From: Gordius sp. MW1
Lineage: Eukaryota; Nematomorpha; Gordioida; Gordea; Gordiidae
Length of the DNA stretch: 64,000 bases
Assembly: GCA_964036665.1 (NCBI GenBank)
Contig: OZ038530.1
Location: 6,214,501 to 6,278,500, forward strand
Direction: 5' to 3'
How positions within the stretch are numbered: position 1 is the first letter of the stretch; each line of letters starts with the position of its first letter. The notes beneath the pieces are model-generated. The model did no database searches. It saw nothing but the letters and a program-made list of their open reading frames with translations, and was not told the DNA's origin. Position numbers and translations under genes: made by a program. Shown one piece after another: positions 17,381 through 63,565 of this stretch.

Positions 17381-19105
17381 AAAAACTCGGGCCTTCGGCC
17401 CTCGTGGGAAGGGGGAGGGGAGAAGGGAAGGGGGGAAGGGAAGGGGGGACGACTCATCTATACTTCGTATAAATGTATCATATTTGCTATGCAATTTATG
17501 GGCGAGAAAGGTGGGAAGGGGCGAGAATGCCTATAGGGGGGTATTAAATGCCTAATGATTAATTAATTATTTATACAAATTTTCCATTTATAAGCAAAAT
17601 GTAATATAGGCAAAATGTAATATAGGCAAGGGTTAGGGTTAGATTTAGTGTTTGCATCTAGTTGCGTATTACATTAGTTTTTACGGCCTTTAGTGATTAT
17701 GGGTCTAACAAACATTATATTATAAAACATCACAATGTTAAGAATTTGCAAAATTATTGAGAGAAATTTTTGTTGAATTTGAACAATTTTTAATTAAAAA
17801 AATCAAAAATTTGGCGAATGGTCATTTTTTCTCCATTGGTCAGTACCAATAAATACTCTATAAGTCAATGATAGCCAAAAAAACGGGAAAAAATTTGATG
17901 CTCACTTTGGCCAATGGTCATTTTTTTCCATTGGTCAGCAGCCAGCACACGGTAAAAATGGATATAAATTCATAAGAGTAAAAAAAACGAGAAAAAAATT
18001 TCGAATCACATTTTGGCCAATGGTCATTTTTTTCCATTGGTCAGCAGCCAGGACACGGTAAAAGTGGATATAAATTCATAGTAGTCAAAAAAAACGAAAA
18101 AAAAATTTTCGAATCACATTTTGGCCAATGGTCATTTTATTCCATTGGTCAGCGGACGGCCAAAAAGTCATAATAGCAATGGTAGGAACAGGAACAATCA
18201 TAATAGTCAAAAAAAACGAAAAAAATAATTTCGATTCACATTTTGGCCAATGGTCTTTTTTTCCATCGGCCAGGAGCCAGCGGACGGCCAAAAAGTCATA
18301 ATAGCAATGGTAGTAACAGGAACAATCATAATAGTCAAAAAAAAACGAAAAAATAAACTCAGATTCACATTTTGGCCAATGGTCATTTTTTCATTGGTCA
18401 GCAGCCAGCGGACGGCCAAAAAGTCTTATTATCAATGATAGTAACAAGAACAATCATAAGAGTCAAAAAAACTCCGGGATTCTAACCCAAAAACTAGTTA
18501 AATTGCATAGCAATTAAAAGTAAAAACTTTTATTTATGTTTATTATATAATAAAATGAAACAATAATAGAACAAGCGGACGGCCAAAAAGTCATATTATC
18601 AATGGTAGTAACAGGAAAAATATATTAATTTAATTTTAGAAATAAAAATTTTTTGCCCTCTCCGGGAATCGAACCAGCAATTCAGAACGTTCGCCGGGGT
18701 TCGAACCCACATTAATAGAGGCATAGGCTTTTGTAGGGGCACAGGGACCCATATCAGTAGAGGCATAGGCCCTTGTAGTGGAGGGCATAGGGTAATTATA
18801 GCAATTAATATCAATGTTACCCAATTCAAAAACGAATAGATATACTTATGCATTAATTTAACATAGCAATTAAAACCCGACCCCGCCCGAAAGCGAGGGA
18901 GATAGAGATGAGGGGTGGGGCACCACTTATGCATTAATAGCGAGGGAGATAGAGATGATGGGTGGGGCACCTCTTTCTCATGCATTAATTTAAAAAATCG
19001 ATAACCTAGTATACCCAATGCAAATAGATACGGACGGACGGACAACGGACGGACGGACAACGGACGAACAACAAAAAACGAGCCCATAAATTGCATAGCA
19101 ATTAA
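17381..19105 (+). repeat. Composite repeat family, copy 1
   Basis: This is the reference copy of a long family recurring eight times here. The 5' end is AACTCGGGCCTTCGGCCCTCG (hairpin GGGCCTTCGGCCC) followed by purine-rich GGGAAGGGG. Next comes TTTGCTATGCAATTTATGGGC (about 17488), a GGTTAGGGTTAG patch (about 17632), then an array of ~120-bp units each carrying CCAATGGTCATTTTTTCCATTGG. B-box-like GGGTTCGAA sequences follow (inverse orientation, about 18660-18710). The 3' end holds GGACGG repeats and finishes with TTGCATAGCAATTAA. No transposase or RT is encoded. Confidence 0.8.
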
Positions 19106-19614
19106 AAAAGTTAACGAAATAAAAATTTCTCTTTTTTTATTAAAAATTTAAATAAGTTTTAAAAAAATCCAAAGAGCAAACCTTTGTATTTTTTGAAAAA
19201 CCTTAATCACTTTTTAAAGATTTAGCACGACATCTCATTGAAAATATAAAGATAACATTTTCTATGAAAAGTGCAAATTAAAAAAAACTATAAATAAGTT
19301 TGAGAAAAATTTTATAGTTAACTAGCTGTGCCCGGCTAAGCTGCTTTGGCTTAGTCTTATTAACTAATTAATTAGTATGAATAAATAGAACATATATAAA
19401 GATTTTGGGTCATCTGTAGGAGAGTTTAGGATGTAAAAAATAGAATGCTATATTACCCCCTCCTTCTCATTTACGCCACTGATTGAAATAAATATTAGTT
19501 AATTTAATGAAAGGGAAAGGCATATTTATTCATAATTTAAAACATTTGTAACAGTTTTTAATACTTATAAAGTATTTGTTAATTTCCTAGGTTAAAAAGT
19601 GCAATGTTAACTAT
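19106..19614. other. Spacer with an inverted Helitron 3' end
   Basis: 19321-19356 reads CTAGCTGTGCCCGGCTAAGC..., the reverse complement of the Helitron 3' terminus seen at 21645-21680 (hairpin region then GGGCACAGCTAG). This marks a minus-strand Helitron end. The words TTTTATAGTTAAC (19310) and GTTAACTATAAAA (19606) form an inverted pair around it. The remainder is AT-rich without genes. Confidence 0.55.
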
Positions 19615-19973
19615 AAAACTCGGGTCTTCGGCCCTCGTGGGAAGGGGGAGGGGAGAAGGGAAGGGGGGACGACTCATCTTTACTTCGTATAAATCTATAT
19701 ATATAAAGTAAAGTGTATATATGTATGTAAGGGCTAATCTCTGAAACTACCGGCCCGTTTCGCGCGAAAATTTACCCCTAGGTTCCCAGGGCGGCCAGGG
19801 GTAAAATAGCCTTTGCCGATTCCTAAAATTCCTTTTAATTTTCGAGATATTGGGTTTTATACGTTTTGACGTTCAATAAAATGTCAATCAAACGCACCTC
19901 CTCGCGTTCGTCGAAAATTTGAATATACAGACAGTTCTGTAGTAGAAGTGTATCACTTATAGTAGTTTGTAAA

Positions 19974-20843
19974 ACGTAATCTTTTCTTAACGGTGACAAC
20001 GTAAAATTTATGAATTAAATTTCTTAAACGTCATCTTTTCTTAACGGTGACAAGACAACATAAAATTTATGAATTAAATTTCTTAAACGTCATCTTTTCT
20101 TAACGGTGACAAGACAATATAAAATTTATGAATTAAATTTCTTAAACGTCATCTTTTCTTAACGGTGACAACATAAAATTTATGAATTAACCTGAAATAA
20201 ATAAAATTATAGATTATTTGAGAAAATATATAGGTGAAGAAGATGAATTTTTCTCATTATCATTACATGAGATATTTTAAATGAGAAAGATGAAAGTATA
20301 TATAATTTAAATGTAATATAAAATAGTCCAACGTTGATTATTCTGAGTAAATGCTATTTATATATAAATGTCATTATTTATCTATCATTAATTTTTATTA
20401 AATGAGATATTTAAATGAGAATCAAATTTATGAATTAAATTTCTTAAACGTCATCTTTTCTTAACGGTGACAAGACAACATAAAATTTATGAATTAAATT
20501 TCTTAAACGTCATCTTTTCTTAACGGTGACAAGACAATCTAAAATTTATGAATTAAATTTCTTAAACGTCATCTTTTCTTAACGGTGACAACATAAAATT
20601 TATGAATTAACCTGAAATAAATAAAATTATAGATTATTTGAGAAAATATATAGGTTAAGAAGATGAATTTTTCTCATTATCATTACATGAGATATTTTAA
20701 ATGAGAAAGATGAAAGTATATATAATTTAAATGTAATATAAAATAGTCCAACGTTGATTATTCTGAGTAAATGCTATTTATATATAAATGTCATTATTTA
20801 TCTATCATTAATTTTTATTAAATGAGATATTTAAATGAGAATA
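19974..20843 (+). repeat. Nested tandem duplications inside the Helitron
   Basis: A ~60-bp unit (CGTCATCTTTTCTTAACGGTG then AATTTATGAATTAAATTTC) is repeated three to four times from about 19974. The whole block plus its AT-rich 3' flank is then duplicated with a period of 420 bp (for example AACCTGAAATAAAT at about 20188 and 20608). The two 420-bp copies are almost identical, so the larger duplication is recent. Confidence 0.85.
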
Positions 20844-21287
20844 AATTTTGAAACTACCGGCCCGATTCGCGCGAAACTTTACCCGTAGGTTCTCAGGGCG
20901 GCCAGGTGTAAAATAGCTTTTTCAGATTGCTAAAATTCCTTTTAGTTTTAAAAATATCGGACATTTCTCGGCCTTTTGGTTTTAAAAAAGGGCTAAATTC
21001 TGAAACTTCAGATCCGATTCGAGCGAAAATTTAGCCGTAGATGCCCAGATAGGCCAGGGGTAAAATAGCTTTTTCAGATTCCAAAATACCTTTTTGTTTT
21101 AAAAATATCTGACATTTCCCGTCCAGCATTTATAGCAGCATATACAATAATGACGTCATACATACAAAGCTGAAGTTTTCTCGAATTAGATATTTAAAAG
21201 TATAATAAAAATGTTACAGTATACGGTTAAAATTATTGGGGTTTAACAGACTATTTAAATTAAATAAATAAAATTTAAATTATGCAG

Positions 21288-21492
21288 TTTTTGTCATTAT
21301 TATCACGTGGTCGATCATATAAGCATATTTTTAATAAATATCCATCCTTCAATTAATTATTTTATTATATTAAAGAAAATTGTATTTCAAATAAATCAGC
21401 TAACTAGAAAAATAAAATAATTAATTGAAGGATGGATAATTATTAAAAATATGCTTATATGATCGACCACGTGATAATAATGACAAAAACAG
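21288..21492. repeat. Long palindrome near the Helitron 3' end
   Basis: Two ~75-80-bp arms are inverted copies of each other: one contains CACGTGGTCGATCATATAAGC (about 21304), the other GCTTATATGATCGACCACGTG (about 21452). A ~55-bp spacer separates them. Parts of the same arm recur at 10905-10925 and 44785-44820, showing it belongs to the Helitron family. Confidence 0.8.
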
Positions 21493-23688
21493 AATTTGCA
21501 TTTGGTTTGTCTTATTATAAAAATATATACTAAAAAAGTGGGTTCATAAAATCATTCGGACCTTTCACATTATAAGTTATTTCATATATGACCCCATTTT
21601 AGATAAGTCTTATTAATAGCTTATACTTAATTAACCACTTAAGGACTGAGCCAAAGCAACGCTTGGCCGGGCACAGCTAGTGTATCATATTTGCTATGCA
21701 ATTTATGGGCGAGAAAGGTGGGAAGGGGCGAGAATGCCTATAGGGGGGTATTAAATGCCGAATGATTAATTAATTATTTATACAAATTTTCCATTTATAG
21801 GCAAAATGTAATATAGGCAAAATGTAATATAGGCAAGGGTTAGGGTTAGATTTAGTGTTTGCATCTAGTTGTGTATTACATTAGTTTTTACGGCCTTTAG
21901 TGATTATGGGTCTAACAAACATTATATTATAAAACATCACAATTTTTAAGAATTTGCAGAATTGTTGGGAGAAATTTTTGTTGAATTTGAACAATTTTTA
22001 ATAAAAATCAAAAATTTGGCGAATGGTCATTTTTTCTCCATTGGTCAGTACCAACAGATACTCTTTAAGTCAATGATAGCCAAAAAAACGGGAAAAAAAT
22101 TTGATGCTCACTTTGGCCAATGGTCATTTTTTTCCATCGGTCAGCAGCCAGCACACGGTAAAATGGATATAAATTCATAAGAGTAAAAAAAAACGAAAAA
22201 AAATTTTCGAATCACATTTTGGCCAATGGTCATTTTATTCCATTGGTCAGCAGCCAGGACACGGTAAAAGTGGATATAAATTCTTAATAGTCAAAAAAAA
22301 CGAAAAAAAAAATTTCGAATCACATTTTGGCCAATGGTCATTTTATTCCATTGGTCAGCAGCCAGCGGACGGCCAAAAAGTCATAATAGCAATGGTAGGA
22401 ACAGGAACAATCATAATAGTAAAAAAACAACGAAAAAAATAATTTTGATTCACATTTGGCCAATGGTCATTTTTTTCATTGGTCAGCAGCCAGCAGACGG
22501 CCAAAAAGTCATAATAGCAATGGTAGTAACAGGAACAATCATAATAGTCAAAACTAAAACGAAAAAAAACTTGGAATCACATTTTAGCCAATGGTCATTT
22601 TTTCCATCGGTCAGCAGCCAGCGGACGGCCAAAAAGTCATAATAGCAATGGTAGTAACAGGAATAATCATAATAGTTAAAAAAAACGAAAAAATAAACTC
22701 GGATTCACATTTTGGCCAATGGTCATTTTTTTCATTGGTCAGCAGCCAGCGGACGACCAAAAAGTCTTATTATCAATGATAGTAACAAGAATAATCGTAA
22801 TAGTCAAAACTAAAACGAAAAAAAAAACTTGGAATCTCATTTTGGCCAATGGTCATTTTTTCCATCGGTCAGCAGCCAGCGGACGGCCAAAAAGTCATAA
22901 TAGCAATGGTAGTAACAGGAACAATCATAATAATAAAAAAAAAACGAAAAAATAAACTTGGATTCACATTTTGGCCAATGGTCATTTTTTTCATTGGTCA
23001 GCAGCCAGCAGACGGCCAAAAAGTCATAATAGCAATGGTAGTAACAGGAACAATCATAATAGTAAAAAAAACGAAAAAATAAACTTGGATTCACATTTTG
23101 GCCAATGGTCATTTTTTCTTTGGTCAGCAGCCAGTGGACGGCCGAAAAGTCGCATTAGCAATGGTAGTAACAGGAACAATCATAATAGTCAAAAAAAAGA
23201 AAAAAGAAACTTGGATTCACATTTTGGCCAATGGTCATTTTTTTCATTGGTCAGCAGCTAGCAGACGGCCAAAAAGTCTTATTATCAATGGTAGTAACAA
23301 GAACAATCATAAGAGTCTAAAAAAACTCCGAGATTCTAACCCAAACTCTTGTAGTGGAGGGCATAGGGTAATTATAGCAATTAATATCAATGTTACCCAA
23401 TTCAAAAACGAATAGATATACTTATGCATTAATTTAACGTAGCAATTAAAACCCGACCCCGCCCGAAAGCGAGGGAGATAGAGATGAGGGGTGGGGCACC
23501 TCTTATGCATTAATTTAAAAAATAACACAGCGAGGGAGATAGAGATGAGGGGTGGGGCACCTCTTTCTCATGCATTAATTTAAAAAAGCGATAACCTAAT
23601 ATACCCAATGCAAATAGATAGGGAGGATACAACGGACGGACGACGGACGGACACCAAAAAACGAGCCCAAAAATTGCATAGCAATTAA

Positions 23689-24472
23689 AAGTTATAAACC
23701 ACTGGTGTATAAAAGTCTGTTATAATGATCGACAATGTAGAGAAAATATTTTAGTACATCGTTTATAATAGTGTAATGTTATAGCTTAAAATCTATAGTA
23801 TCAAAATGAAGAGATATTAAAAAGTTCCTTCAATTTGGTTAAATGAGGGCTTTTACAAATTTGGTTGAAATCAGAATTAATTAGAAATAACAAATTTCCG
23901 CAAGTATATAATGGAAGCGAAATTATGTATGAGAAAAAAATTAGAAATATAGTTATATCGTTATACCTAGTAAAATTTTGATCAGGTGAATGTATTATAG
24001 ATGAGGTTTGATTTTAATTAAACCCAGTATAAAGATAATGACTTAAGTATAAAGTAAAACAATTAATATATATTATAATTTTAGACCTGGAAGTGTAGTT
24101 AAAGTTGAAGGAGGGAATTATGTTATATTCATAGGCTTAGCCAACATTACGATTAGAGTGGGGCAATAATGATTTGGAGGGGGGCAGACGCCCTTCTCTG
24201 CCTCCCTCTGACTACGCCCATGGGTATATTAATAGTTTGATTGTACACATACGGGTATCAGCTTACCTGAGTGATGATAAAATATGATTTTCAAAAAGAA
24301 AGAAAACTATGCTTATTTACCTAAAATTAAGTTGGAATAAGGATAAGGCTGGAAGATTGATATGGTTGGCGGGGAAATCTTTGCGATAAACGTATTGATA
24401 TTAGTAGATAATTAAGTTACAATGAAGATAAATACAGCTATACCTGTTATGGAGGTATAAAATTTAAAAATA
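23689..24472. other. No gene; contains a GGGCGTAGCC-type transposon end
   Basis: AT-rich sequence. 24115-24225 carries GGGGGGCAGACGCCC and ends with GACTACGCCCATGGG, an inverse copy of the end seen at 10012. No coding signature was found. Confidence 0.4.
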
Positions 24473-24860: not shown

Positions 24861-25007
24861 CCTAAAAAATACATAAAACAAACAGTAATTATTTTTTACC
24901 TTTTGGTTGAAATAAAAATTTTGAATCTTCCATCTTCGTAAGATGCTTCATTAGCAACTATGTAGGGAGTGTCCTCTTCTAGAGGAATGCGAATTTTCAC
25001 TTAGCCA

Positions 25008-26348: not shown

Positions 26349-27798
26349 TACGCCTCTGGATTTCGAATCGAATCGAATATTTTTGGTATTCGATTCGTAT
26401 TCGAATTTTTTTTTAAAAAAAATATTCGATTCGAGATTCGTCGAATATTAAAATGAAGATTCGAATTCGATTCGAAAAAAATTTAAGGATTCGAAATCGA
26501 TTCGAATATATATTTAGTTTTTTTATTATTAAAAAACACATTAAAAAGGCTATGTTTTTTAATTTGCATATACATTTGGAAAATTTATTTGAAAGATATT
26601 TAAAAAAATACACACATTACAAAAAACTATGGCGCTATGTGTAAGACAATCAAGAACCGTTTTTAGCCAATTTTTAAGGCAAATTATCTTCCTAACACTT
26701 TCTTTCTTAAACGATTGCTTGTATTTGGTTAATAAATTGGTTCCGGTTGAAAATATTCTTTCGCACGGGGTAAATGATCCAGGTATAGAGAAAAGATTTT
26801 TTGACAATTTTTGAATATCTGGAAAACCACATTGATTCGATTTCCATCATTGTAAAGGCTAAACATTGGAGGCCACACGTGGTTTGTGCAAAAATGTCTC
26901 CAATGGAGACTTCGCCTTATCGCTCTTAATAGACGACCTAGTGTTGATAACTCGCTAGTTGATAAAAATCGGGCCGACTTTCTATAGCAGTTTCCAAGAC
27001 ATCTTTAATTTCTCTAGAGGATATGCCATGTACGTAAATCACCCCAGTGGTGATAAACACTTAAATTTTGGGACTTAAATCGACGGCATTCGCCAATAAG
27101 ACTATCTTCTTGTTGAATGCCATATATCTTCAATTTTCTGTTTGACCATTTTGACAGCATGATCTTCTATGCCTGGCTAACAATATACCGGTAATCCCAA
27201 GTTAATTTTGGGATTTGCCTCCCTTCCCCCCGGATATTAACTAGTTGCACTGTAAAAGGGTAAAAAGTATCAATTTAACCTTTTCAATTAGTTTCCATTC
27301 AATGTTAAATAGTAATTCCTCATAAAAGAAATTTAAAGGCCAAATTCAATGCTGGCTTACCAAAATAGCCTATTCTATCATTATATAAGTGCTGTTCCAC
27401 CTGACTACCATGTCAAGTTTCGCCTTTATGTAATTAATTGGTGGGTCAAAATCTTTAAATATAGCCTTTAAGCGTAAATTATTTTTGGCTGTCTTGCGAT
27501 TTCTATCAAAATCCATAATTTAAATAAATTTTAATCCCCATTCACCATAACTTAGGTAAGTTTGAAAATTTTGTAATTATACTTTTTCAAATTGTAGCAG
27601 GAAAAATAACTAAAATGGAGAAGATAAAAATAGCTAAATATTTGAGTCTCGTCCATTTAAATTAAACTTAAAAAAAATTAATTCGATTTTTTCGAGGAAT
27701 CTTATCAGCGTAAATATTCGATTCGAAACTTACACATATGGATTCGACCGATTCGAATCGATTCTCGAATCAAATCTCGAATATTTCCCAGAGGCGTA
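26349..27798. mobile_element. hAT element (TACGCCTCTG family), 1450 bp, with transposase relic
   Basis: The termini TACGCCTCTGG and CCCAGAGGCGTA are inverted repeats. The flanks CTTTCTGA (26341-26348) and CTCTCTGA (27799-27806) differ at one position. The left third carries the C-terminal end of a hAT transposase on the minus strand (26559-26807). It lies 269 bp from the related copy at 25008-26079, in the same orientation. Confidence 0.88.
26559..26807 (-). pseudogene. hAT transposase C-terminus within the 26349-27798 element
   Basis: The frame reads LFSIPGSFTPCERIFSTG then NLLTKYKQSFKKESVRKIIC and LKNWL, matching the hAT dimerisation signature PA.S..CER.FS..G.......S.L....V....C...WL. The residues expected before it (the DDE core and the W-P.L..LA segment) are not in frame, although antisense scraps continue to about 27180. 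The same region is recognisable in the copy at 33951-36974 (about 35880-35990). This relic identifies the TACGCCTCTG family as hAT independently of the target duplications. Confidence 0.85.
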
Positions 27799-28859: not shown

Positions 28860-29370
28860 ATAACATCAGTCGCTTATTTTTTATTTACGATAAATCAACC
28901 AAATTTCGTTCTTTAATAGATACTGGCGCGGAACTTAGTGTCATACCACCCCCGCGTAACCACCATCTCACCCCCTCACACATCCTCCTCCAAGCTGCAA
29001 ATAGCAGTTCCATACTGACCTATGGCCATAAATCAATGGAACTAGACCTTAGCTTACGGCGAAGTTTTCAATGGGTTTTTACAATCGCGGACGTTAAGAC
29101 ACCTATCATCGGGGCTGATTTTTTAAATCATTATAACCTTCTCGTTGATATACGCCGTAAATGTTTGTTAGACCCTAGGACTACTTTAAAGTCTTATGGG
29201 CGATATGACTCAAACTTGTATAATTTACAACTCGCAATAAAGTTCGATTTACCATATTTTACAAATGTGTTAAAAGAGTTCCTCGATATTTATGACCCTC
29301 CAAATTACAGGTCACGCGTAAGCCACCAAATAGTTCACCACATACGTACGGACCACCCGTTTATGCCTTA
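28860..29370 (+). pseudogene. gypsy aspartic protease
   Basis: The frame contains FRSLIDTGAELSVIPP (about 28903-28950), the retropepsin active-site loop with catalytic Asp in DTGA. The second conserved block IIGADFLNHYNLLVD (about 29106-29150) follows, and a linker runs towards the RT. The protease would cut the element's own polyprotein. The reading frame is open from about 28784 to 29369, so this domain is intact in sequence. The polyprotein continues past the terminating TAG in another register, so at least one mutation separates it from the RT. Confidence 0.85.
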
Positions 29371-33938: not shown

Positions 33939-33950
33939 TGGGCCATTCCA

Positions 33951-36900
33951 TACGCCTCTGGATTTCGAATTGAATCGAATATTTTAATTGCTATGCAATT
34001 TATGGGCTCGTTTTTTGTTGTCCGTCCGTCCGTTACCCTCCTATCTATTTGCATTGGGTATATTAGGTTATCGATTTTTTAAATTAATGCATGAGAAAGA
34101 GGTGCCCCACCCCTCATCTCTATCTCCCTCGCTGTGTTATTTTTTAAATTAATGCATAAGAGGTGCCCCACCCCTCATCTCTATCTCCCTCGGTGTGTTA
34201 TATATAAGATTTGTTAAATTATCTCTTATATAATAAACATAAATAAAAGTTGTTTACTTTTAATTGCTATGCAATTTAACTAGTTATATAATAAACATAA
34301 ATAAAAGTTGTTTACTTTTAATTGCTTTGCAATATAACTAGTTTTTGTTATATAATAAACATAGATAAAAGTTGTTTACTTTTAATGCTATGCAATTTAA
34401 CTAGTTATATAATAAACATAAATAAAAGTTGTTTACTTTTAATTGCTATGCAATTTAACTAGTTTTTGGGTTAGAATCCCGGAGTTTTTTTGACTCTTAT
34501 GATTGTTCTTGTTACTATCATTGATAATAAGACTTTTTGGCCGTCCGTTGGCTGCTGACCAATGGAAAAAATGACCATTGGCCAAAATGTGAATCTGAGT
34601 TTATTTTTTCGTTTTTTTTTGACTATTATGATTATTCCTGTTACTACCATTGCTATTATGACTTTTTGGCCGTCCGCTGGCTCCTGACCGATGGAAAAAA
34701 TGACCATTGGCCAAAATGTGAATCGAAATTATTTTTTTCGTTTTTTTTGACTATTATGATTGTTCCTGTTCCTACCATTGCTATTATGACTTTTTGGCCG
34801 TCCGCTGGCTGCTGACCAATGGAATAAAATGACCATTGGCCAAAATGTGATTCGAAAACTTTTTTTCGTTTTTTTTGACTATTATGAATTTATATCCACT
34901 TTTACCGTGTCCTGGCTGCTGACCAATGGAAAAAAATGACCATTGGCCAAAATGTGATACGAAATTTTTTGTTTTTGTTTTTTTTTACTCTTATGAATTT
35001 ATATCCACTTTTACCGTGTGCTGGCTGCTGACCAATGGAAAAAAATGACCATTGGCCAAAGTGAGCATCAAAATTTTTTTTTCCGTTTTTTTGGCTATCA
35101 TTGACTTATAGAGTATCTGTTGGTACTGACCAATAGAGAAAAAGTGACCATTGGCCAAATTTTTGATTTTTTTAATTAAAAATTGTTCAAATTCAACAAA
35201 AAATTTCTCCCAACAATTCTGCAAATTCTTAACATTGTGTTGTTTTATAATATAATGTTTGTTAGACCCATAATCACTAAAGGCCATAAAAACTAATGTA
35301 ATACGCAACTAGATGCAAACACTAAATCTAACCCTAACCCTTGCCTATATTACATTTTGCCTATATTACATTTTGCCTATAATGGAAAATTTGTATAAAT
35401 AATTAATTAATCATTAGGCATTTAATACCCCCCTATAGGCATTCTCGCCCCTTCCCACCTTTCTCGCCCATAAATTGCATAGCAAATATGATACATTTAT
35501 ACGAAGTACAGATGAGTCGTCCCCCCTTCCCTTCCCTTCTCCCCCTTCCCACAAGGGCCGAAGGCCCGAGTTTTTTTGATATTCGATTCGAATTTTTTCT
35601 CAAAAAAATATTCGATTCGAGATTCGTCGAATATTAAAATGAAGATTCGAATTCGATTCGAAAAATTTCACGATTCGAATCTATAATAACTTTTTTAAAT
35701 TGGAGATTAGATTTAAAAAAGGCTACTGTGATTTTTAATTTACGTATATATTCAAAAAAATTTAAAAACTTTAAAAAGAGTACACACATTGAAAATAAAA
35801 TATTAATGGCGAACAAAAGATTATAGCGATATGAGTAAAACAATCAAGAAGCGTTTTTTGGCCAATTTTTAAGATAAATTATCTTTCTAACACTTTCTTC
35901 CTTAAACGATTGCTTGTGTTTTGTCAATAAATTTGTTCCAGTTGAGAATATTTCTTCGCAGGGGGTAGATGATCCAGGTATAGAGAGAAGATTTTTTGCC
36001 TGTGTTTAGATGGCTGGACTGGAAAACGACGTTGATTTTATTTCCACCATTGTAAAGGCTCAACATTGGAGGCCACCCGTGGTTCGTGTAAATATGTCTC
36101 CAATGGAGACTTCGCGTTCATGTCGCTTTTAACTTAATATACGATCCAGTTTTGATACCTCGCTACCTAGTTGATATAAAATTGGGCTGACTTCCTATAA
36201 GTTTTCAAGTCATCTTTAATTTCTCTATAGGATATGCCATGTACTGGTGATAAACACTCAAATTTTGAGCCTTCAATCGATGACACTCGCTAATAAGACT
36301 ATCTTTTTATTGAATGCCATATATCTTCAATTTTCGGTTTGGCCATTTTGACAGCATGATAATATACCGGTTATACCAAGTTCATTTTGGGTTTCCCCCC
36401 TCCCCCCCTGGATATTAAATTAGTAACATAGTAAAAAGGAAAAAGTATCAATTTAACCTAATTTCTATTTGTTTCCATTCAATTTTGGATAATAACTCCT
36501 CCTAAGAGGAATTTAAAGGCCAAATTCAATGCCTGCAGCCTTTTCTATCATTATATAGGTGCTGTTGCACCTAACTACCATGTCAAGTTTTGCCTTAGTG
36601 TAATTAATTGGTCGGGCATATTCTTTACATATAGCTTTTAATCGTGAAATTTTTGGGCTGTCTTGCAATTTTTATCAACCTTAATATAATTAAATTGTAA
36701 TTTACGTTCTCCATAACTTATGTAAGTTTGAAAAAATTTTAATTAAACTTTTTCAAACTGGAGCAGGAAAAAGAACTCAAATGCGGTAAGATAAAAACAG
36801 CCGAATATTCGGTCTCGTCTATTTAAATTAAAATAAAAAAAATAGAAATTCGATTTTTTCAAGGATTCGATTCGGATTTTCGAATCTTAGCAACGTAATT

Positions 36901-43735: not shown

Positions 43736-43742
43736 GTTATAT

Positions 43743-44786
43743 AAAAACTCGGGCCTTCGGCCCTCGTGGGAAGGAGGAGGGGGGAAGGGGAGGAGGGAAA
43801 GGGGGAAGGTAAGGGGGAACGAAACTCATCTATACTCCGTATAGAAGTAGCATATTTGCTATGCAATTTATGGGCGAGAAAGGTGGGAAGGGGCGAGAGT
43901 GCCTATAGGGGGGTATTAAATGCAAAATTATTAGTTAATTATTAATTTATACAAATATTTAAAAAGTTAAAGGGTATTAACAAGAACAATATATGAAAAT
44001 AAAAATTTTGCCCTCTCCGGGATTCGAACTTACGAGCTAGTGAAGCTAGTCACTCATTCAATCAACTCAGCCATTAGACTTCAAAATATGTTTTACCCAT
44101 TACTTATATATAGCTACCACTTGGTACAATAAAAATAAAAGCAAAAAATATTAGTATAGGTCAAAAAAGACGAAGAGGGCGACCATCACAAGCTAAAAAT
44201 GCTTTGGAATATAACATTTTATTGCGTTTTATATATTTTATTGTATTTTATTAAAAGATAATTAAAACATCATGGGCGTAGCCAGGTTTTGAATTAGGGG
44301 GGGGGGCAGATTCAAAAAAAAATTTCCTGAGAGCAAAAAAAAAAGTTCTCGACTATCTAAAGGGTTTTGGCTGGCCTTGGCCGGCAATTTAGTTATAAAA
44401 CTCTGATGGGGTCTAGCAGAAAATTTGGACAAATATGATTAATGATAAAAGTATTAATATTATGTAGAATGATATCTACTTCCTGGGGCAATCTGGTGTT
44501 TTCACGGGAAAAAATTTCAAACTAGTTTATTTTTCATACGAATTTATTATTATGAAAAAAATGGGGGTTGGCCCCAAATAAATTATAAAACAGACGGTCA
44601 AAAATTCATATTATCAATGGTATTAACAAGAACAAAATATTAATTTAATTTAAAAAAATTAAAAAAAAATTCGTCCTCTCCTAGGCTTGAACCCGAACTT
44701 CCAGGTCACAAAGCTGGCGCCAATAACTTGAAGGGTAACGGACAACGGACAACAAAAAACGAGCCCATAAATTGCATAGCAATTAA
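43743..44786 (+). repeat. Composite repeat family, copy 4
   Basis: It has the family's GGGCCTTCGGCCC start and TTGCATAGCAATTAA end. Its middle lacks the ~120-bp hairpin array but contains a tRNA-like module (44013-44083), a second module near 44690-44745, and a GGGCGTAGCC-type fragment (44272-44320). The last shows that unrelated sequence can be carried or inserted between the conserved ends. Confidence 0.75.
44013..44083 (-). repeat. tRNA-like module with A and B boxes
   Basis: On the minus strand it reads TAATGGCTGAGTTGATTGAA (A-box match TGGCTGAGTTG), then an arm ACTAGCTTCACTAG, then GTAAGTTCGAATCCCGG (B-box match GTTCGAATCC). It ends GAGAGGGCAAAATTTT, a T run on the transcript side. This is the pol III internal promoter layout of a tRNA-derived SINE. 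It is not a functional tRNA, because the acceptor stem does not pair well. Confidence 0.6.
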
Positions 44787-45074
44787 TATGCTTCTATGAT
44801 CGACCACGTGATAATAATAATTGCCCTCTTGTTTTTCGATTACAATTTAAATGGTTAAAATATTATCGTTAGTTACATCAAAGACTTTAAAGCAGTTATA
44901 AAAAGTTTATATATACATGTAATTTTTTTGATTAAATTTTTGACAAAATGCGAATTTTATTTTTTCTAAACAAAATTTTTTTTACTTTTGCCTTATGGAA
45001 AAATACACATATGGTTTAAAATTTTATTTAATATCATTGTTATTTTAAAAAATAATTAGAAAGATACTTAAAAA
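44787..45074. other. Helitron arm fragment and AT-rich spacer
   Basis: 44785-44825 (TATGATCGACCACGTGATAATAATA) matches the palindrome arm at 21452-21490 of the Helitron. The remainder is AT-rich without features. Confidence 0.5.
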
Positions 45075-46364
45075 CAATTTGGCGAATGGTCATTTTTTTC
45101 ATTGGTCAGTAGCCAGGACACGGTTTAAAAGGATATAAATACATAAGAGACGATTAAAAAACGAAAAAAAAATTTCAAATCACAATTTGGCAAATGGTCA
45201 CTTTTTTCCATTGGTCAGTAACAATAGACGGTTTATAAATACATACGAGTCAAAAAAAACGAAAAAAAAATTTTGATTTACACTTTGATCAATGGTGATT
45301 TTTTCCATTGGTCAACAGCCAACGGACGGCCAAAAAGTCACATTATCAATGGTATTAACAAAAACAATATATTAATTTGAAAAAAAAATGAAAAAAAAAA
45401 TTTGATTCACACTTTGGCCAATGGTCATTTTTTCCATTGGTCAGCAGCCAACGGACGGCCTAAAAGTCACATTATCAATGGTATTAACAAGAACAATATA
45501 TTAATTTAAAAAAAAAAAAAAATTTTGATTCACACTTTGGCCAATGGTGATTTTTTTCATTGGCCAGTAGCCAGCGGACGGTCAAAAAGTCATATAATCA
45601 ATGGTATTAACAAGAACAATATATTAATTTAATTTAAAAAAAAATAAAAATTTTGCCCTCTCCGGGATTCGAACCCACATTAGTAGAGGCATAAGCTTTT
45701 GTAGGGGCACAGGGACCCATATCAATAGGGGCATAGGCATTTGTAGGGGAGGGCACAGGGTAATTAGCAATGTTAACCAATTCAAAAACGAAAAAAAAAA
45801 TTTCGATTTATACTTTGGCCAATGGTCATCTTTCCATTGGTCAGTAGCCAGAACACTGTCAAAAAGTCATATTATCAATGGTATTAACAAGAATAATATA
45901 TTAATTTAATTTAAAAAAAATAGAAATTTTGCCCTCTCCGGGATTAGAACCCACATTAGTAAAGGCATAAGCTTTTGTAGGGGCACAGGGACCCACATTA
46001 GTAAAGGCATAGGCTTTTGTTTAGGTACCCATATTAGTAGAGGCGTAGGCCCTTGTAGGAAAGGGCATAGGGTATTTATCAATGTTAACCTAATATACCC
46101 AATTCAAAGACGAAAATAAAATTTCGATTTATTTGGCCAATGGTCATTTTTTTCATTGGTCAGTAGCCAGCGGACGGTCAAAAATTCATATTATCATGTT
46201 ATTAATAAGAACAAAATATTAATTTAATTTAAAAAAATTAAAAAAAAAATTCGTCCTCTCCTTGGCTTGAACTTAAGACCTCCAGGTCATAAAGCTGGCG
46301 CTAATAACTTGGTGGACGACGGACGGACAACAAAAAACGAGCCCATAAATTGCATAGCAATTAA
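45075..46364 (+). repeat. Composite repeat family, copy 5 (5' end missing)
   Basis: It starts in the ~120-bp hairpin array (GGCGAATGGTCATTTTTTTC at 45080). It alternates array units with B-box modules (GGGATTCGAACCC near 45663, GGGATTAGAACCC near 45940) and 45-bp repeats of the type GGCATAAGCTTTTGTAGGGGC. It carries a tRNA-like module at about 46255-46315 and ends with TTGCATAGCAATTAA. Confidence 0.75.
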
Positions 46365-46585: not shown

Positions 46586-47954
46586 TTAATTGCTATGCAA
46601 TTTATGGGCTTGGGCTCGTTTTTTGGTGTCCGTCCGTCCGTCCACCAAGTTATTTGCCCCAGCTTTCTGACCTGGAGGTTCGAGTTCAATCCCAGGAGAG
46701 GACGAATTTTTTTTTAAATTAAATTAATATTTTGTTCTTGTTAATACTATTGATAAAATGACTTTTTGACCGTCCGCTGGCTCCTACCACTGAAAAAATG
46801 ACCAATGGCCAGATAAATCGAATTTTTTTTTCGTTTTTGAATTGGTTAACATTGATAATTACCCTATGCCCTCCCCTGCCTATGCCTCTACTGATATGGG
46901 TCCTTATGCCCCTACAAAAGCATGTGCCTCTACTGATGTGGGTTCGAATCCCGGCGAGGGCAAAATTTTTTTTTTAAATTAAATTAATATATTGTTCCTG
47001 TTAATACCATTGATAATATGACTTTTTGGCCGTCCGCTGACTCCTGACCAATGAAAATATGACCATTGGCCAAATAAATCGGATTTTTTTTTCGTTTTTG
47101 AATTGGTATATTAGGTTAACATTGATAATTACCCTATGCCCTCCCCTACAAGGGCCTATGCGTCTACTGATATGGGTCCCTGAGTCCCTACAAAAGCCTA
47201 TGCCTCTACTGATGTGGGTTCGAATCCCGGCGAGGGCAGATTCTTAATTGCTGGTTCAAATCCCGGAGAGGGCAAAATTTTTATTTTTTTTAAATTAAAT
47301 TAATATATTGATCTTGATAATACCATTTATAATATGACTTTTTGACCTTCCGCTGGCTACTGACCAATGAAAAAAATGACCGTTGGCTAAATAAATCGAA
47401 TTTTTTTTCCGTGTTTGAATAGTTATATTAGGTTAACATTGATAATTACCCTGTGCCCTCCCCTACAAGGGCCTATGCCTCTACTGATATGGGTCCCTGT
47501 GCCCCTACAAAAGCCTATGCCTCTACTAATGTGGGTTCGACTCCAGGAAAGGGCAAATTTTTTTTTTTTAATTAAATTAATATATTGTTCTTGTTAATAC
47601 CCTTGATAATACGACTTTTTAACCGTGTCCTGGCTACTGACCAATGAAAAAAATCACCATTGGCCAAATTGTGATTCGAAATTTTTTTTCGTTTTTTTTC
47701 AAATTAATATATTGTTTTTGTTAATACCATTGATAATATGGCTTTTTGGCCGTCCGCTGGCTGCTGACCAATGGAAAAAATCACCATTGGCCAAAGTGTG
47801 AATCGAATTTTTTTTCGTTTTTTTCGACTCGTATGTATTTAAAACCGTCTTTTAATACTGACCAATGGAAAAAAATGATCATTGGCCAAATTGTGATTTG
47901 AATTTTTTTTTCGTTTTTTTCGGCTCTTATGTATTTTGTTCTCGTTAATACCAT
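46586..47954 (-). repeat. Composite repeat family, copy 6 (inverse)
   Basis: It begins with AATTGCTATGCAATTTATGGGC, then GTCCGTCCGTCCACC, and a tRNA-like module (46640-46712 with CCAGCTTTCTGACCTGG and GAGTTCAATCCC). Next come three to four ~320-bp blocks combining a B-box (GGGTTCGAATCCCGG at about 46938 and 47218) with array hairpins. It ends near 47950 without the GGGCCTTCGGCCC end, abutting a Helitron fragment. Confidence 0.75.
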
Positions 47955-48227
47955 TGATAAAATTTATTTATTTAATTTAAAATAATTTTGACCGTATACT
48001 GTAACATTTTTATTATACTTTTAAATATTTAATTCGAGAAAACTTCAACCTTGTATGTATGACGTCATTATTGTATAAGATGCTATAAATGAAACTGGCC
48101 AGGAAATGTCCGATATTTTTAAAACGAAAAGGTATTTTAGGAATCTGAAAAAGCTATCTTACCCCTGGCCGCCCTGGGCATCTACGGCTAAATTTTCGCG
48201 CGAATCGGGCCGGTAGTTTCAGGTTTA
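47955..48227 (-). repeat. Helitron fragment (inverse)
   Basis: It contains TTTTGACCGTATACTGTAAC, TATGACGTCATTATTGTAT, TTTTAAAACGAAAAGG, TGGCCGCCCTGGGCATCTAC, and GAATCGGGCCGGTAGTTTC. This is the reverse complement of the blocks at 10960-11160 and 20990-21240. No terminus is preserved. Confidence 0.7.
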
Positions 48228-50690: not shown

Positions 50691-50739
50691 GTTTATGTAT
50701 CCCCAACCATTATACAATTAAAATTATATTTTATGCTAG

Positions 50740-54714: not shown

Positions 54715-55395
54715 AGTTTAAAACACCACTAAGAAGGAGTGGCAGTTTGCACTATTTTAATATACCACTACAAAGGATTGGCAGGTAATACCATTATATT
54801 TTTGCCTACTGATTTTTGTAAATATTACACTTTTACTTTAATAATCTTTTTGCATACAATTAGCCCTATTTGCAGTTTAAAATACCACTACAAAGGATTG
54901 GCAGGTAATACCATTATTTTTGCCTACTGATTTTTATAAATATACATTTTTCTCTAATAATTTTTTTGCATACAATTTGCCTTATGCAGTTTAAAATACC
55001 ATTAAGAATTGGCAGTTTCCACTATTTTAATATACCACTACAAAGGATTGGCAGGTAATACCATTATATTTTTGCTACTGATTTTTGTAAATATTACATT
55101 GTTACTCTAATAATTTTTTTGCATACAATTTGCCCTATTTGCAGAATACCACTATAAAGGATTGGCAGATAATACCATTATATTTTTGCCTACTGATTTT
55201 TGTAAATACTACATTTTGACTTTAATAATTTTTTTGCATACAATTTGCCTTATTTGCAGTTAAAAATACTACTAAGAAGGATTGGCAGTTTGCTATTTTA
55301 ATATACCACTACAAAGGATTGGCAGGTAATACCATTATATTTTTGCCTACTGATTTTTGTAAATATTACATATTTACTCTAATAATTTTTATGCA
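54715..55395 (+). repeat. Tandem array, ~118-122-bp unit, about five to six copies
   Basis: Units read ATACCACTACAAAGGATTGGC, AGGTAATACCATTATATTTTT, GCCTACTGATTTTTGTAAATA, TTTTTTTGCATACAATTTGCC, TATTTGCAGTTTAAA. They start near 54760, 54880, 55030, 55145 and 55300. It sits immediately upstream of the helicase fragment, and one unit flows directly into it. Confidence 0.85.
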
Positions 55396-55401
55396 CCCAA
55401 T

Positions 55402-55842
55402 TTGCATCTTCCAGCCATACTACCACACGTTTTGCATTTGAAAATTGGGGCACTGATTATCATGTTGCGCATTATTAATCAGCCAAAACTTTGCAATGGC
55501 ACACGTCTTGCTATTAAACGCTTAATGTGCAACGTTGTTGAGGCCACGATTTTGACTGGACCTTTCACGGGAGAAGATGTCTTCATAACACGGATCCCTT
55601 TAATTCCAACAGATATGCCCTTTGAATTTAAAAGATTGCAATTTCCTTTCAAACTCGCATTTGCTATAACCATTAACAAAGCTCAAGGCCAGTCCCTTGC
55701 AATTTGTGGAATCGATTTAGAAACAGATTGTTTCTCACGTGGACAATTATATGTTGCATGTTCGCGCGTCGGCAATCCACTAAATCTCTATATCTACACA
55801 GAAAATAACATGACCAATATTGTCTATCTTCAAACATTATAG
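55402..55842 (+). pseudogene. Helitron helicase (Pif1-like), C-terminal fragment, open frame
   Basis: The frame reads LCNGTRLAIKRLMCNVVEA, ILTGPFTGEDVFITRIPLIP, FPFKLAFAITINKAQGQSLA, and RGQLYVACSRVGNPLNLYI before a stop at 55840. These are the last motifs of SF1B Pif1-family helicases (motif V TINKAQGQS and motif VI YVACSRV), which unwind DNA during rolling-circle transposition. The N-terminal Rep (HUH) domain and helicase motifs I-IV are absent. The tandem array is found where they should be, so the gene has been truncated by array expansion or deletion. The 146-codon frame is intact, suggesting a fairly young copy. Confidence 0.9.
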
Positions 55843-55850
55843 CAATTTGT

Positions 55851-56829: not shown

Positions 56830-57509
56830 GTTTCTACCATAGACTAATAATAAACATAGACTGCCGAACAACTGTTTTTTTGTAAGACAGTAAGAAGGCA
56901 GCCATATCTTGAGAGGACAATCAGAGCAAATCGACCTATATATAAATCTAATGAAATGAGCTCAAATTTATTAATAAATCAAGAAAATTAAATTTTTTGG
57001 GGGTTAATTAGGACAAAAAATTGTTTCAATTTATAAAAGCTTAAAATAGATAAAATTTATGTTTAAAGACTAATTACTAACAATTTAATATGTATTGTGA
57101 ACAAATAGAACTATAAATTTAGCGCCATCTATATTACATTTGAATTTCAAATTTATAGTGATAATGCTTGAGCATTTTTAAGGCAAAGTTTTTTTCAGGA
57201 ACTTATCTGTGGGAAGTATTTTAAAAAAGGGAAAGGGACGTATTTAAATTTTGTAAAACTTTTAACATGAATAAAAAAGATCCTGTTATAGAGCAAAAAA
57301 AGGTCTATATTCATAAAAAGTAAAAAATAAAAAGGTCCCTGCTACATCTGAATTGTAAATTAAACAATAAGTTTATTCAAAAATACAGTATATAACGTTT
57401 ATAAATATTGCACGATATATATAAGATCGTATTAAAACACTAATTGAATGGGATCATATCAATTACAGATTTAGTAGAGAAGGTGTAATAAATCTACCTA
57501 GATGGTCTT

Positions 57510-57790
57510 TTCCTCTAAAAAGGTTTTAAGAAGGCATGTTAAGCAATCTTGAAAACACAGAGAAGATTATATTGAACATAACTAACCTGACATACGGCTG
57601 GTGGTGGTTGGTTGTGGGCAGGAGGTGATGGTCTTATCCTTTAAAAAGGTTTTAAGAAGGCATGTTAAGCAATCTTGAAAACACAGATATATTGAACATA
57701 ATTAACCTGACATACGGCTGGTGGTGGTTGGTTGTGGGCAGGAGGTGATGGTCTTATCCTCTAAAAAGGTTTTAAGAAGGCATGTTATTA
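57510..57790. repeat. Tandem duplication inside the P-type element
   Basis: A ~125-bp unit (CTCTAAAAAGGTTTTAAGAAG, GCATGTTAAGCAATCTTG, ACCTGACATACGGCTGGTGG, GTTGTGGGCAGGAGGTGATGG) occurs twice with a partial third copy. A diverged piece (GGCTGGTGGTAGTTGG) lies at 58235. Confidence 0.85.
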
Positions 57791-58060
57791 AATCATATTT
57801 GCATATGGATAAAGCAATATTACCTTATTTTGGGTATCATGGGTGTTTGTAATATCTTGAAGAGCTTTTGCTGAAGTTTTGCTATTTACATGAATTTTGG
57901 GGACAGCCGTCTCCCGAAGCCTATTATTTAACCTCGAAGGATAATAGTCTTTCTGCTCGAAATGGTTTGAGCATATAAGGGAGTTCTTCTTAAAAATAAA
58001 TTGTGGACCCATAACTTGTATCCATTTTTCTACCAAATTTTTATTCTTTACAGGAAATCT
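57788..58060 (-). pseudogene. THAP zinc-finger domain of the P-type transposase
   Basis: The minus-strand frame reads LVEKWIQVMGPQFIFKKNS then LICSNHFEQKDYYPSRLNNR and LRETAVPKIHV. The pieces W, ICSxHFxxxDY, LRxxAVP are the conserved THAP residues (W36, C-x2-H of the zinc site, and the AVPTIF box in human THAP1 terms). The preceding exon with CxxC is not found next to it: the frame opens after a splice-acceptor-like stretch near 58050 (minus strand). THAP domains bind the transposon ends in P elements. Only about 82 codons remain before a stop. Confidence 0.8.
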
Positions 58061-58445
58061 AAATTAAAAATTAATATTAAAACAATATATCACTTGTAAA
58101 ATCCTATGTTGCGACTAGATCCTATATACAAATGGCATAGACTGCAATGCTTCATCTATTTATATGTAAAACATGGGGATAAATTATTGTTAAATATAAT
58201 GAGAAAATCTAATAAACGTAACTAACTTGAAAAATGGCTGGTGGTAGTTGGTTATAAAAAGGGGGACGTGGCTTAGATGACGTATTCCTTATATCAATGT
58301 TGCAATGGATATATTACTTGATATACTTTCCTATTTTAAAATGGCGGACGAAGCGTTAAAATTGGCTGAATTTAGCGCAAGCTATTTAGATACAGAAAAA
58401 CAGCTGTTCGGCAGTCTATGTTTATTATTAGTCTGTGGTTTCTAA

Positions 58446-59376
58446 AGTAGAGAGAACATCTAACAATGCTCCCAAAGACTGTGTTAAAAAATTGTCAGAG
58501 TTGTATAACAAATTTAAGACCCACAAAATTAAAATTTAATTGCAGTTTAATTTAGAAATAGATTTTTTTCAGACAGTTTGAATTATCCCAAGAATTATAA
58601 GTCGCAGATTAAATGCACATAGTCTGTGTTTTACATTATAAAAGATTAGATTTTCCTATTGATGAACATTATCATGATATTTCAATTTTGTCATGCATAG
58701 CTAATAGATATATTTGCAATTTTGCTTATCTGTATGAGGATAGCTTAGAAGTTAGGATTCTTTAAAAAATCAAGACATGTATTCAAATTTTTAATATGTT
58801 GCATGATATTTAAACATGATAGACAAGTGTAAAATGCTTTTTTAATCATCTATAACAATCATATTCAAAGTAATCAATGATGAATAAAAATATTATATCA
58901 AGGCTTACATCAATCCTCTGCCTTTTATCTTGTCCTTATGGGTTTAGTGAAAACACCATATATGACAATATCCTAAAAAAAGCATTCTATAAAATTTGCT
59001 TACAAGCACTTTAATAGCTTGACATTATGATTCATATAAGTGATAGAAATTCTGCTCATTTTTACCAATAACATAATCTATAACATCGTTGATAAAATAT
59101 TCTTTGATTGGTCTTCGAACCAATAAACATTCGAATGGCTGTGCAGAAGCGAATTTAATGATCATACAAAATAAAATAACAGAGATAAATATGGAAATAG
59201 CACCATCTATAGTGTATTTTATATATGCAATAAATATAATATTTTGTTTGAAGTTAAAATTTTACCTAAAACATTTATTAGTCTATGTTTTTGTAACAAT
59301 TTGACTGGCAAAATATCATCCAGTGCTTTTCTATTTTGCTCATATTAATTAGCCATATCACAAATCGCTTATTACT
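58446..59376. other. Upstream region of the Smad gene
   Basis: AT-rich, no transposon signature and no gene recognised on either strand. The Smad promoter and any 5' non-coding exon must lie here or further upstream beyond the P-type element. Confidence 0.45.
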
Positions 59377-60611
<1,235 letters not shown>

Positions 60612-61261
60612 TAATTAGTCTAATTTAAAATTATTTAATTATTATGCAATCAAATAGCTTTCAAAATATTGGTAATAGTATATTGTTCTACCATTTTTTA
60701 TTTGATATTTCTTAACTCTCTGTTGGTCAAAAAATAATTATTAGGATACCAAAAGCTACTCTGAATTCATAACTTTAATAGCTTTACCTTGGTTATTTTA
60801 ACTTTGTACAAATAATAATCATTTAACTCTACTGTTTAATTGACTTTACTTTATTGTACAATTTATTGGTTATATTAAACTCGGGCCTTCGGCCCTCGTG
60901 GGAAGGGGGGGAAGGGAAGGGGAGTAGGGGAAGGGAAGAGGGGAAGGGGGAACTCTTCTATACTCCGTATAAACGTAGCATATTTGCTATGCAATTTATG
61001 GGCGAGAAAGGTGGGAAGGGGCGAGAATGCCTATAGGGGGTATTAGATGCAAAATAATTAGTTAATTAGTTATAGGCCCTTGTAGGGGAGGACATAGGGT
61101 AATTATCAATGTTAACCAATTCAAAAACGAAAAAAAATTTCGATTTATTTGGCCAATGGTCATTTTTTTATTGGTCAGTAGCCAGCGGACGGTCAAAAAT
61201 TCATATTATCATTGGTATTAACATGAACAAATATTAATTTAATTTAAAAAAATTAAAAAAA

Positions 61262-61340
61262 AAAATTTGTCCCCTCCCTGACTTGAACCCCACACCTCCA
61301 GTTCACAAGCCTGCGCTATAACCACTATACCATGCTGGCT
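61262..61340 (-). repeat. tRNA-like module with strong A box
   Basis: On the minus strand: GCATGGTATAGTGGTTATAGC (A box TGGTATAGTGGTTA, identical to many real tRNAs), an anticodon-arm-like GCAGGCTTGTGAACTGG, and GTGGGGTTCAAGTCAGG (B box with one deviation). The CTTGTGAA loop resembles a tRNA-His(GTG) loop. T-rich sequence follows. Best read as the head of a tRNA-derived SINE. The stems are imperfect, so it is not a functional tRNA gene. Confidence 0.65.
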
Positions 61341-61509
61341 TTAAAATAGTAGAAGTTATTATGTTATTTATATAGATGATGAAATTAATATGACTTTTTG
61401 ACCGTCCGCTGGCTACTGACCGACGAAATATATTGATTTTCTAAACATAAAACACAACTATTAACAAAAACAAAATATTAATTTAATGTAAAAAAAAAAT
61501 TAAAAAAAA

Positions 61510-61670
61510 AGTTTTTTTTAGTTTTAAAAAAGGGCTAAATTCTTAAACTAACAGCCCGATTCGCTCGAAACTTTACCCGTAGGTGCCCAGGGCGGCCGGG
61601 GGTAAAATAACCTTTTCAGATTCCTAAAATACCTTTTCATTTTAAAAATATCGGACATTTCCCTGCCACA
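61510..61670 (+). repeat. Helitron fragment
   Basis: GGGCTAAATTCTTAAACTAAC, AGCCCGATTCGCTCGAAACTT, GGTGCCCAGGGCGGCCGGGG and TATCGGACATTTCCCTGCC match the internal blocks of the Helitron at 19694-21680. No termini. Confidence 0.65.
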
Positions 61671-63565
61671 CGCGGTGTAATATCTATGACACGTAGAAAA
61701 ATTTTACTAATTATATAAACTTACGCGCGCCATCTAATAAAGTACAATTCGTGTTTGAGTTTAATAGTAGATTCAATTTAATTAGAAATAACGGGCTATG
61801 CTTATACCTTTGAAGGAGGTTTCGAATTTTGTGTTAGTTTCTATCGATATATTTTATCGTAAATTAGAATCTAATACCTATATTATTTTTTTAAATATTA
61901 CTTTTTAGGTTTTCTATGAAATCACAATCTAATTAAATGAAATATATTAACCCAATAAAAAAATATATATGCATTTATAAGGTTAAAAATATATATTACA
62001 TAGTTGGCTGTCTGTTAGACCATCTATAATAAATTTTTAGGTTATATATAAAATTTGGCCAATGGTCATTTTTTTTCATTGGTAAGCAGCCAGGACACGG
62101 TAAAAGTGGTTATAAATTCATAAGTCAAAAAAAAACGAAAAAAAAATTTTCGAATCACATTTTGGCCAATGGTCATTTTTTCCATCGGTCAGGAGCCAGC
62201 GGACGGCCAAAAAGTCATAATAGCAATGGTAGTAACAGGAACAATCATAATAGTCAAAAAAAACGAAAAAATAAACTCGGATTCACATTTTGGCCAATGG
62301 TCATTTTTTTCCATTGGTCAGCAGCCAGCACACGGTAAAAGTGGATATAAATTCACAAGAGTAAAAAAAACGAAAAAAAAATTTTCGAATCACATTTTGG
62401 CCAATGGTCATTTTTTTCCATTGGTCAGCAGCCAGCGGACGGCCAAAAAGTCATAATAGCAATGGTAGGAACAGGAACAATCATAATAGTCAAAAAAAAC
62501 GAAAAAAATAATTTCGATTCACATTTTGGCCAATGGTCATTTTTTTCCATCGGTCAGGAGCCAGCGGACGGCCAAAAAGTCATAATAGCAATGGTAGTAA
62601 CAGGAACAATCATAATAGTCAAAAAAAAACGAAAAAATAAACTCGGATTCACATTTTGGCCAATGGTCATTTTTTTCATTGGTCAGCAGCCAACGGACGG
62701 CCAAAAAGTCTTATTATCAATGATAGTAACAAGAACAATCATAAAAGTCAAAAAAAACTCCGGGATTCTAACCCAAAAACTAGTTAAATTGCATAGCAAT
62801 TAAAAGTAAACAACTTTTATTTATGTTTATTATATAACATTGGTCAGCAGCCAGCGGACGGCCAAAAAGTCATAATAGCAATGGTAGAAACAGGAACAAT
62901 CATAATAGTCAAAAAAAACGAAAAAAATCATTTCGATTCACATTTTGGCCAATGGTCATTTTTTTCATTGGTCAGCAGCCAGCGGACGGCCAAAAATTCT
63001 TATTATCAATGATAGTAACAAGAACAATCATAAGAGTCAAAAAAAACTCCGGGATTCCAACCCCAAAACTAGTTAAATTGCATAGCAATTAAAAAGTAAA
63101 CAACTTTTATTTATGTTTATTTATAACTAGTTAAATTGCATAGCATTAAAAGTAAACAACTTTTATCTATATTTATTATATAACCAAAACTAGTTAAATT
63201 GCATAGCAATTAAAAGTAAACAACTTTTATTAATGTTTATTATATAACTAGTTAAATTGCATAGCAATTAAAAGTAAACAACTTTTATTTATGTTTATTA
63301 TATAATAGATAATTTAACAAATCTTATATATAACACACCGAGAGAGATAGAGATGAGGGGTGGGGCACCTCTTATGCATTAATTCAAAAAATAACACAGC
63401 GAGGGAGATAGAGATGAGGGGTGGGGCACCTCTTTCTCATCCATTAAGTTAAAAAAAGCGATAACCTAATATACCCAATGCAAATAGATAGGGAGGGTAA
63501 CGGACGACGGACGACGGACGACGGACGGACACCAAAAAACGATCCCATAAATTGCATAGCAATTA

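Follow-up and report, generated by a model that had tools for sequence, protein, structure and literature searches.

The Repeat Units of the Window

The stretch of Gordius sp. MW1 DNA considered here (64,000 nucleotides of contig OZ038530.1, hereafter the window) contains several copies of an interspersed repeat with fixed ends and a core that varies from copy to copy. The repeats are almost certainly HINEs, i.e., non-autonomous Helentron (Helitron2-type) rolling-circle transposons. The assignment is built on the anatomy of the copies, the ends they have in common with a coding Helentron, T-rich insertion sites, two empty-site comparisons, copy number, and the lack of coding domains. In keeping with an earlier note on this DNA, which had seen no obvious coding capacity, three open reading frames (ORFs) of the window copies, of 120–181 aa, gave no Pfam match at E 0.01.

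In Helentron orientation, the orientation used throughout, a HINE runs from the TTAATTGCTATGCAATTTATGGGC tip palindrome through a tandem-repeat core and, some 100 bp before the far end, an inverted copy of the palindrome, to a GGGCC-GAA-GGCCC hairpin and a closing GAGTT. This reverses the orientation first given, in which the Helentron 3′ end had been taken for the 5′ end. Three things agree on the reversal: where the hairpin lies, the T-rich sites, and the strand on which the partner Helentron is coded. Five window copies have both ends and two more have only the TTGCATAGCAATTAA end, so that the eight two-ended copies of the earlier note are reduced to five. Copy 2 owes its length of 4.1 kb to the nested canonical-type Helitron (Table 1).

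Table 1. HINE copies, their parts and related sites in the window (strands in Helentron orientation).
Feature	Position	Strand	Remarks
Complete HINE copy 1	17384..19105	-	Both ends
Complete HINE copy 2, split by canonical-type Helitron	19617..23688	-	Both ends, one mismatch in each
Canonical-type Helitron nested in copy 2, TC...CTAG	19694..21680	+	Between A and T of the HINE; undisturbed site in copy 1
Uninterrupted paralogue of copy 3 insertion site	26361..26405	+	
Complete HINE copy 3	33984..35572	+	Both ends: 5′ TTAATTGC... at 33984, 3′ ...GAGTT at 35572; empty counterpart near 26361
Copy 3, 5′ terminal palindromic repeat	33984..34007	+	ATTGC-TAT-GCAAT stem
Copy 3, array of 58-bp unit repeating the terminal palindrome	34226..34468	+	
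Copy 3, inverted internal copy of 5′ repeat	35466..35489	+	86 bp from 3′ end
Copy 3, 3′ terminal hairpin GGGCC-GAA-GGCCC then GAGTT	35555..35572	+	
Complete HINE copy 4	43746..44786	-	Both ends
Partial copy	45074..46364	-	5′ end only
Partial copy	46586..47956	+	5′ end only
Complete HINE copy 5	60878..63566	-	Both ends, one mismatch in 24-bp end

The end motifs lie where the earlier note had placed them, far above chance expectation. The hairpin end AACTCGGGCCTTCGGCCC, with up to three mismatches allowed, is matched five times in the window (four exact, one with a single mismatch), where 0.00 matches are expected; TTGCATAGCAATTAA, with up to two, is matched 25 times against 0.51 expected, some of these short matches being internal, within the palindrome array of the copies. 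A subterminal motif, described as the inverse of the other end, gave 12 matches at up to three mismatches against 0.00 expected, and is nearly the reverse complement of that end. Both ends can form the short hairpins attributed to them. This folding is only mildly unusual: for three stretches, 12, 3 and 12 of 200 shuffles folded equally well or better.

Anatomy of the Copies

The anatomy was compared in 25 two-ended copies: 18 from contig C1, one each from loci L003 and L046, and the five of the window. The 20 copies from outside the window were chosen by exact ends; end conservation among them thus reflects selection, and young copies are favoured. With this limit, the copies start with TTAATTGCTATGCAATTTATGGGC and end with GGGCCGAAGGCCCGAGTT, the deviations being one hairpin mismatch in window copy w2 and one start mismatch each in w2 and w5. 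The palindromic start repeat, ATTGC-TAT-GCAAT, is found at position 4 in all 25, 20 of which were selected by exact ends. The inverted inner repeat lies 67–141 bp from the 3′ end in 22 copies, at 99 bp in 10 of these 22; in w2 it is shifted by an insert. A C/T-rich stretch of variable length separates the inner repeat from the terminal hairpin. The 3′ stem-loop, GGGCC-GAA-GGCCC, ends 5 bp plus Ts before the terminus; it is exact in 24 copies and has one mismatch in the other. In the last 200 bp, 18 copies are 0–4% off consensus, while L064, L067, L070, L072, w2, w4 and w5 are 11–38% off, some of them with inserts or missing parts.

The inverted repeats recall a MITE-like (miniature inverted-repeat transposable element) cut-and-paste transposon with terminal inverted repeats (TIRs), as DINE-1 was once described. 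One of the repeats is at the tip, however, and its partner is about 100 bp inside; target duplication beyond Ts is absent at two empty sites, and the coding relative encodes Rep/helicase. We therefore consider a TIR element barely conceivable. The earlier description of an element without TIRs needs amending to include asymmetric inverted repeats, one at the tip and one internal.

The core is where the copies vary. Extra ATTGCnnnGCAAT palindromes are found inside it in 19 of the 25 copies, up to four extra in each, and in the window copies these internal palindromes are led by TTTTAATTGC, as is the true end. Tandem arrays inside copies have periods of about 58, 106–109 and 123–129 bp; we infer that the tandem core is an internal expansion. 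As to the tRNA-like modules of the earlier note, no tool called a tRNA, and B-box-like strings are visible by eye only: ARAGORN, and Rfam at its gathering cut-off, found none in the window, and a permissive Rfam scan of 43000–64000 found none there. The strings seen by eye, with GGTTCGAATCCC-type B boxes, lie in HINE cores at window positions 43990–44080, 46940–46965, 47210–47240 and 61270–61345 and are possibly a captured or inserted tRNA-derived short interspersed element (SINE). Three permissive Rfam matches concern two microRNA families and a viral frameshift element; they scored below the gathering thresholds and were judged to be chance.

Target Sites

The copies are inserted in T-rich DNA. 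The T run following GAG is at least four long in 21 of the 25 copies, and the Ts preceding AATTGC number exactly two in 15 and more in 10; the selection of most copies demanded at least two Ts per side. Two insertions can be compared with empty sites. For copy 3, the empty counterpart proposed in the earlier note is indeed present in the window. Copy L063 is inserted in the core of another HINE, the undisturbed form of which was seen many times in the fetched loci. Comparison of filled and empty sites, counted by hand, indicates that only Ts are gained, six for copy 3 and five for L063. Set aside were weak empty-site matches for L056, L064 and L067, as well as further copy 3 matches in the same AT-rich repeat. 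In sum, the boundary comparison proposed in the earlier note finds boundaries that agree among copies, and insertion sites that exist.

Abundance and Pairing of the Ends

In the genome searched (G000, 211.8 Mb), the 18-bp hairpin end is matched exactly at 3429 sites, 1738 on the forward and 1691 on the reverse strand, and the 24-bp palindromic end at 6421; backward-read control motifs gave no match. Pairing of the two ends was assessed for the 56 hairpin ends in the first 3.16 Mb of contig C1, within a 5-kb range. A palindromic end lies downstream in the expected orientation for 37 of the 56, at a median of 1840 bp. The corresponding numbers are 11 of 56 for the wrong orientation, 5 of 56 for upstream placement, and a mean of 3.7 with a maximum of 11 for random placement (500 trials). 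Since pairing is above random, the two ends belong to one unit.

The abundance bears on whether the units are satellite blocks lacking insertion sites, as their tandem arrays might suggest. The 3429 exact ends are dispersed and occur on both strands, and across the 25 copies, 20 of them picked by exact ends, the fixed ends are common to units in unrelated flanks. The existence of empty sites contradicts the satellite reading, to which we give next to no credence.

The Coding Helentron Partner

A genome search for DUF6570 (PF20209) gave 21 matches, and a Rep-region search using a query from one of these gave 40, many of them fragments of the same loci. Two lineages of Helentrons, A and B, have Rep motif 2 as FKRIEFQHRGSPHAH, with S between G and P and with F/Y-x-R before it. 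This type of motif is reported as the Helentron form (PMC4067079).

At C8:4.09 Mb, lineage A has a 1767-aa open frame. DUF6570 and Helitron_like_N are matched by its N-terminal piece; the C-terminal piece has PIF1 and, after it in the same frame, the AP-type endonuclease domain Exo_endo_phos (PF03372, 26.3 bits), and a separate downstream ORF matches the replication protein A OB domain. TTTTTAATTGCTATGCAATTTATGGGC is found upstream, and the core repeats are about 84% like those of the HINE. Downstream of this Helentron, at C8:4082785-4083093 (L043), a variant end, TTATTAATTGCTATGCAATTTATGCCTTAACG, occurs twice at a spacing of 288 bp; such ends may belong to a sister subfamily.

Lineage B fits better than lineage A as the direct partner. 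The earlier note had suggested a search for a longer, coding relative with the same ends, and such an element is present on the minus strand at C6:3185016-3199785: a 14770-bp lineage-B Helentron with both family ends and an insert of about 3 kb in its coding part. It opens and closes with HINE ends: identity is 94.2% over 156 bp at the 5′ end and, at the 3′ end, 93.7% over 174 bp and 94.6% over a 56-bp stretch that includes the hairpin. Its coding region includes DUF6570 (44.4 bits), a Rep region 76% identical to the query, and PIF1 (56.1 bits), and the coding strand is the one expected for Helentrons. Over the last 60 bp, six HINE copies have 51–56 identities with it in 56–58 aligned bases, or 79.7–90.3% when gap columns are counted.

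In a second lineage-B copy, at C8:35.19 Mb, Exo_endo_phos scores 33.5 bits (cut-off 24.5), and the 3′ end is that of the HINE (91.8% over 196 bp, one hairpin base missing). The two copies also share the noncoding stretch before the 3′ end, and their homology stops four bases past GAGTT. The 3′ end therefore belongs to the Helentron itself rather than to a HINE nested in it. A third copy, at C6:10.995 Mb, matches the HINE 5′ end at 89.6% over 317 bp and is broken off before the 3′ end; at a fourth locus, C8:4.62 Mb, no family 3′ end was found in the 8 kb downstream.

The surroundings of the third copy have features of their own. A separate, complete HINE lies about 140 bp from its 5′ end, and Kelch-like coding pieces adjoin the Helentron on both strands (L045, L046 and L048, C6:10979000-10999999). 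An inverted duplication is suggested by Rep matches on opposite strands, at C6:10.958 Mb (+) and 10.992 Mb (-).

The genome is also rich in canonical Helitrons (Helitron1), which might be thought to mobilise the units. Helitron_like_N was matched at least 150 times genome-wide, with 150 of the 714 first-look candidates scored, and one canonical-type Helitron sits inside copy 2. The family ends, however, are TTAATTGC...GAGTT, not TC...CTRR, and the family sites are T-rich, not A|T. The 30 best canonical loci all have GLPH, the Helitron motif, and no family end was seen within about 1.5 kb of any of them. By its ends, site and Rep motif, the canonical Helitron is ruled out as a partner, and mobilisation from this source appears highly improbable. 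The HINE family is most likely mobilised in trans by the lineage-B Helentron of the same genome. As for the machinery offered in the earlier note, the Helitron-like option thus stands, and an unknown recombinase or a Penelope-like machinery is not needed.

Proposed Mechanism and Weight of the Evidence

By analogy with the family to which it belongs, a HINE would be moved as follows. A Helentron protein with Rep, PIF1 helicase and endonuclease parts, encoded elsewhere in the genome, would recognise and nick the common HINE ends. One HINE strand would then be peeled off and copied, and the strand would be joined into a T run of T-rich DNA. For Helitron2, Bao and Jurka (2013; PMC3627910) put forward the hypothesis that the 5′ and 3′ asymmetric repeats pair, removing the 5′ hairpin and marking the end of replication. 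The HINE anatomy fits this suggestion by analogy: the hairpin of the palindromic 5′ repeat may be opened by base pairing with the inverted copy near the 3′ end, and the inverted copy together with the 3′ hairpin may mark the replication end.

The internal array of terminal-palindrome copies is the least ordinary trait of the family. It could be functional, providing several sites for Rep recognition or stopping; rolling-circle copying would then begin or halt within the element and so create both the variable tandem core and copies lacking a 3′ end. We regard this proposal as unlikely.

Several observations weigh against the HINE assignment or against its proposed partner. The inner repeat is absent from two of the 25 copies, L067 and L070. 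A short T duplication is indistinguishable from the element's own terminal Ts, the number of which is not fixed; variable terminal Ts are likewise reported by Thomas and colleagues (PMC4067079). For lineage A, the hairpin end was not found in the 25.2 kb read, despite the long open frame. In lineage B, two endonuclease pieces score below the Pfam cut-off of 24.5 bits, at 18.2 and 18.5 (C6:3185016-3199785), and the proteins examined are interrupted by stops, frameshifts or an insert. Finally, the inner repeat of mite HINEs is 38–60 bp from the 3′ end, a descriptive figure, and their hairpin is 8–35 bp from the terminus (PMC4067079), compared with 67–141 bp and 5 bp plus Ts here.

With the HINE assignment, a common repeat of this genome gains a class, an orientation and an autonomous partner, and need not remain annotated as unknown. 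Moreover, this genome, with its open-frame Helentron lineage, related coding copies bearing the HINE ends, and HINE ends in the thousands, lends itself to the study of Helentron end recognition.

Other Features of the Window

An ORF at window positions 29334–29864 matches reverse transcriptase (PF00078, 71.4 bits), and protease-like and integrase-like ORFs are seen by eye close by; the region suggests a degraded long terminal repeat (LTR) retrotransposon. At 55363–55842, a fragment matching the Pif1 2B domain (PF21530, 40.5 bits) is probably a remnant of a Helitron helicase.

Comparison with Known Systems

The anatomy is that of HINE/DINE-1 elements, which are non-autonomous and have Helentrons (Helitron2) as their partners. 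The earlier note was right to see an interspersed element that is not an LTR element, a long interspersed element or a plain SINE. Its statement that no described class fits is not supported, since HINE/DINE-1 fits. Because the features described for HINEs are found in the family, we call it an apparently new HINE family and not a new class. Its departures are the longer inner-repeat distance, a hairpin slightly nearer the tip, and the internal palindrome array, of which no mention was found in the passages of PMC4067079 consulted.

As described in that paper, the HINEs of Metaseiulus occidentalis and Culex and the DINE-1 of Drosophila have a palindromic repeat 2–4 nt from the 5′ tip (3 nt here). 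They are also like the present family in having an inverted copy internal to the 3′ end, a 3′ stem-loop, a T-rich target, variable terminal Ts, tandem repeats in some copies, and ends in common with a Helentron of the genome.

Autonomous Helentrons resemble the partner in Rep motif 2, with S between G and P, in PIF1 and in the endonuclease domain, and lineage A also in its downstream ORF with a replication protein A OB domain. They differ from the window units, which have no coding domain. The partner carries DUF6570 on its N-terminal side.

The accounts of Helitron2 and of FoHeli of Fusarium (PMC3627910, PMC5148889) describe asymmetric terminal inverted repeats and hairpins at both ends, as here. 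They report no endonuclease for the fungal elements, whereas the partner has an endonuclease domain. FoHeli1/2 are further alike in having a GAA-loop hairpin and a T-rich 3′ end, but their GAA-loop hairpin is at the 5′ end, and that of the present HINE family is at the 3′ end.

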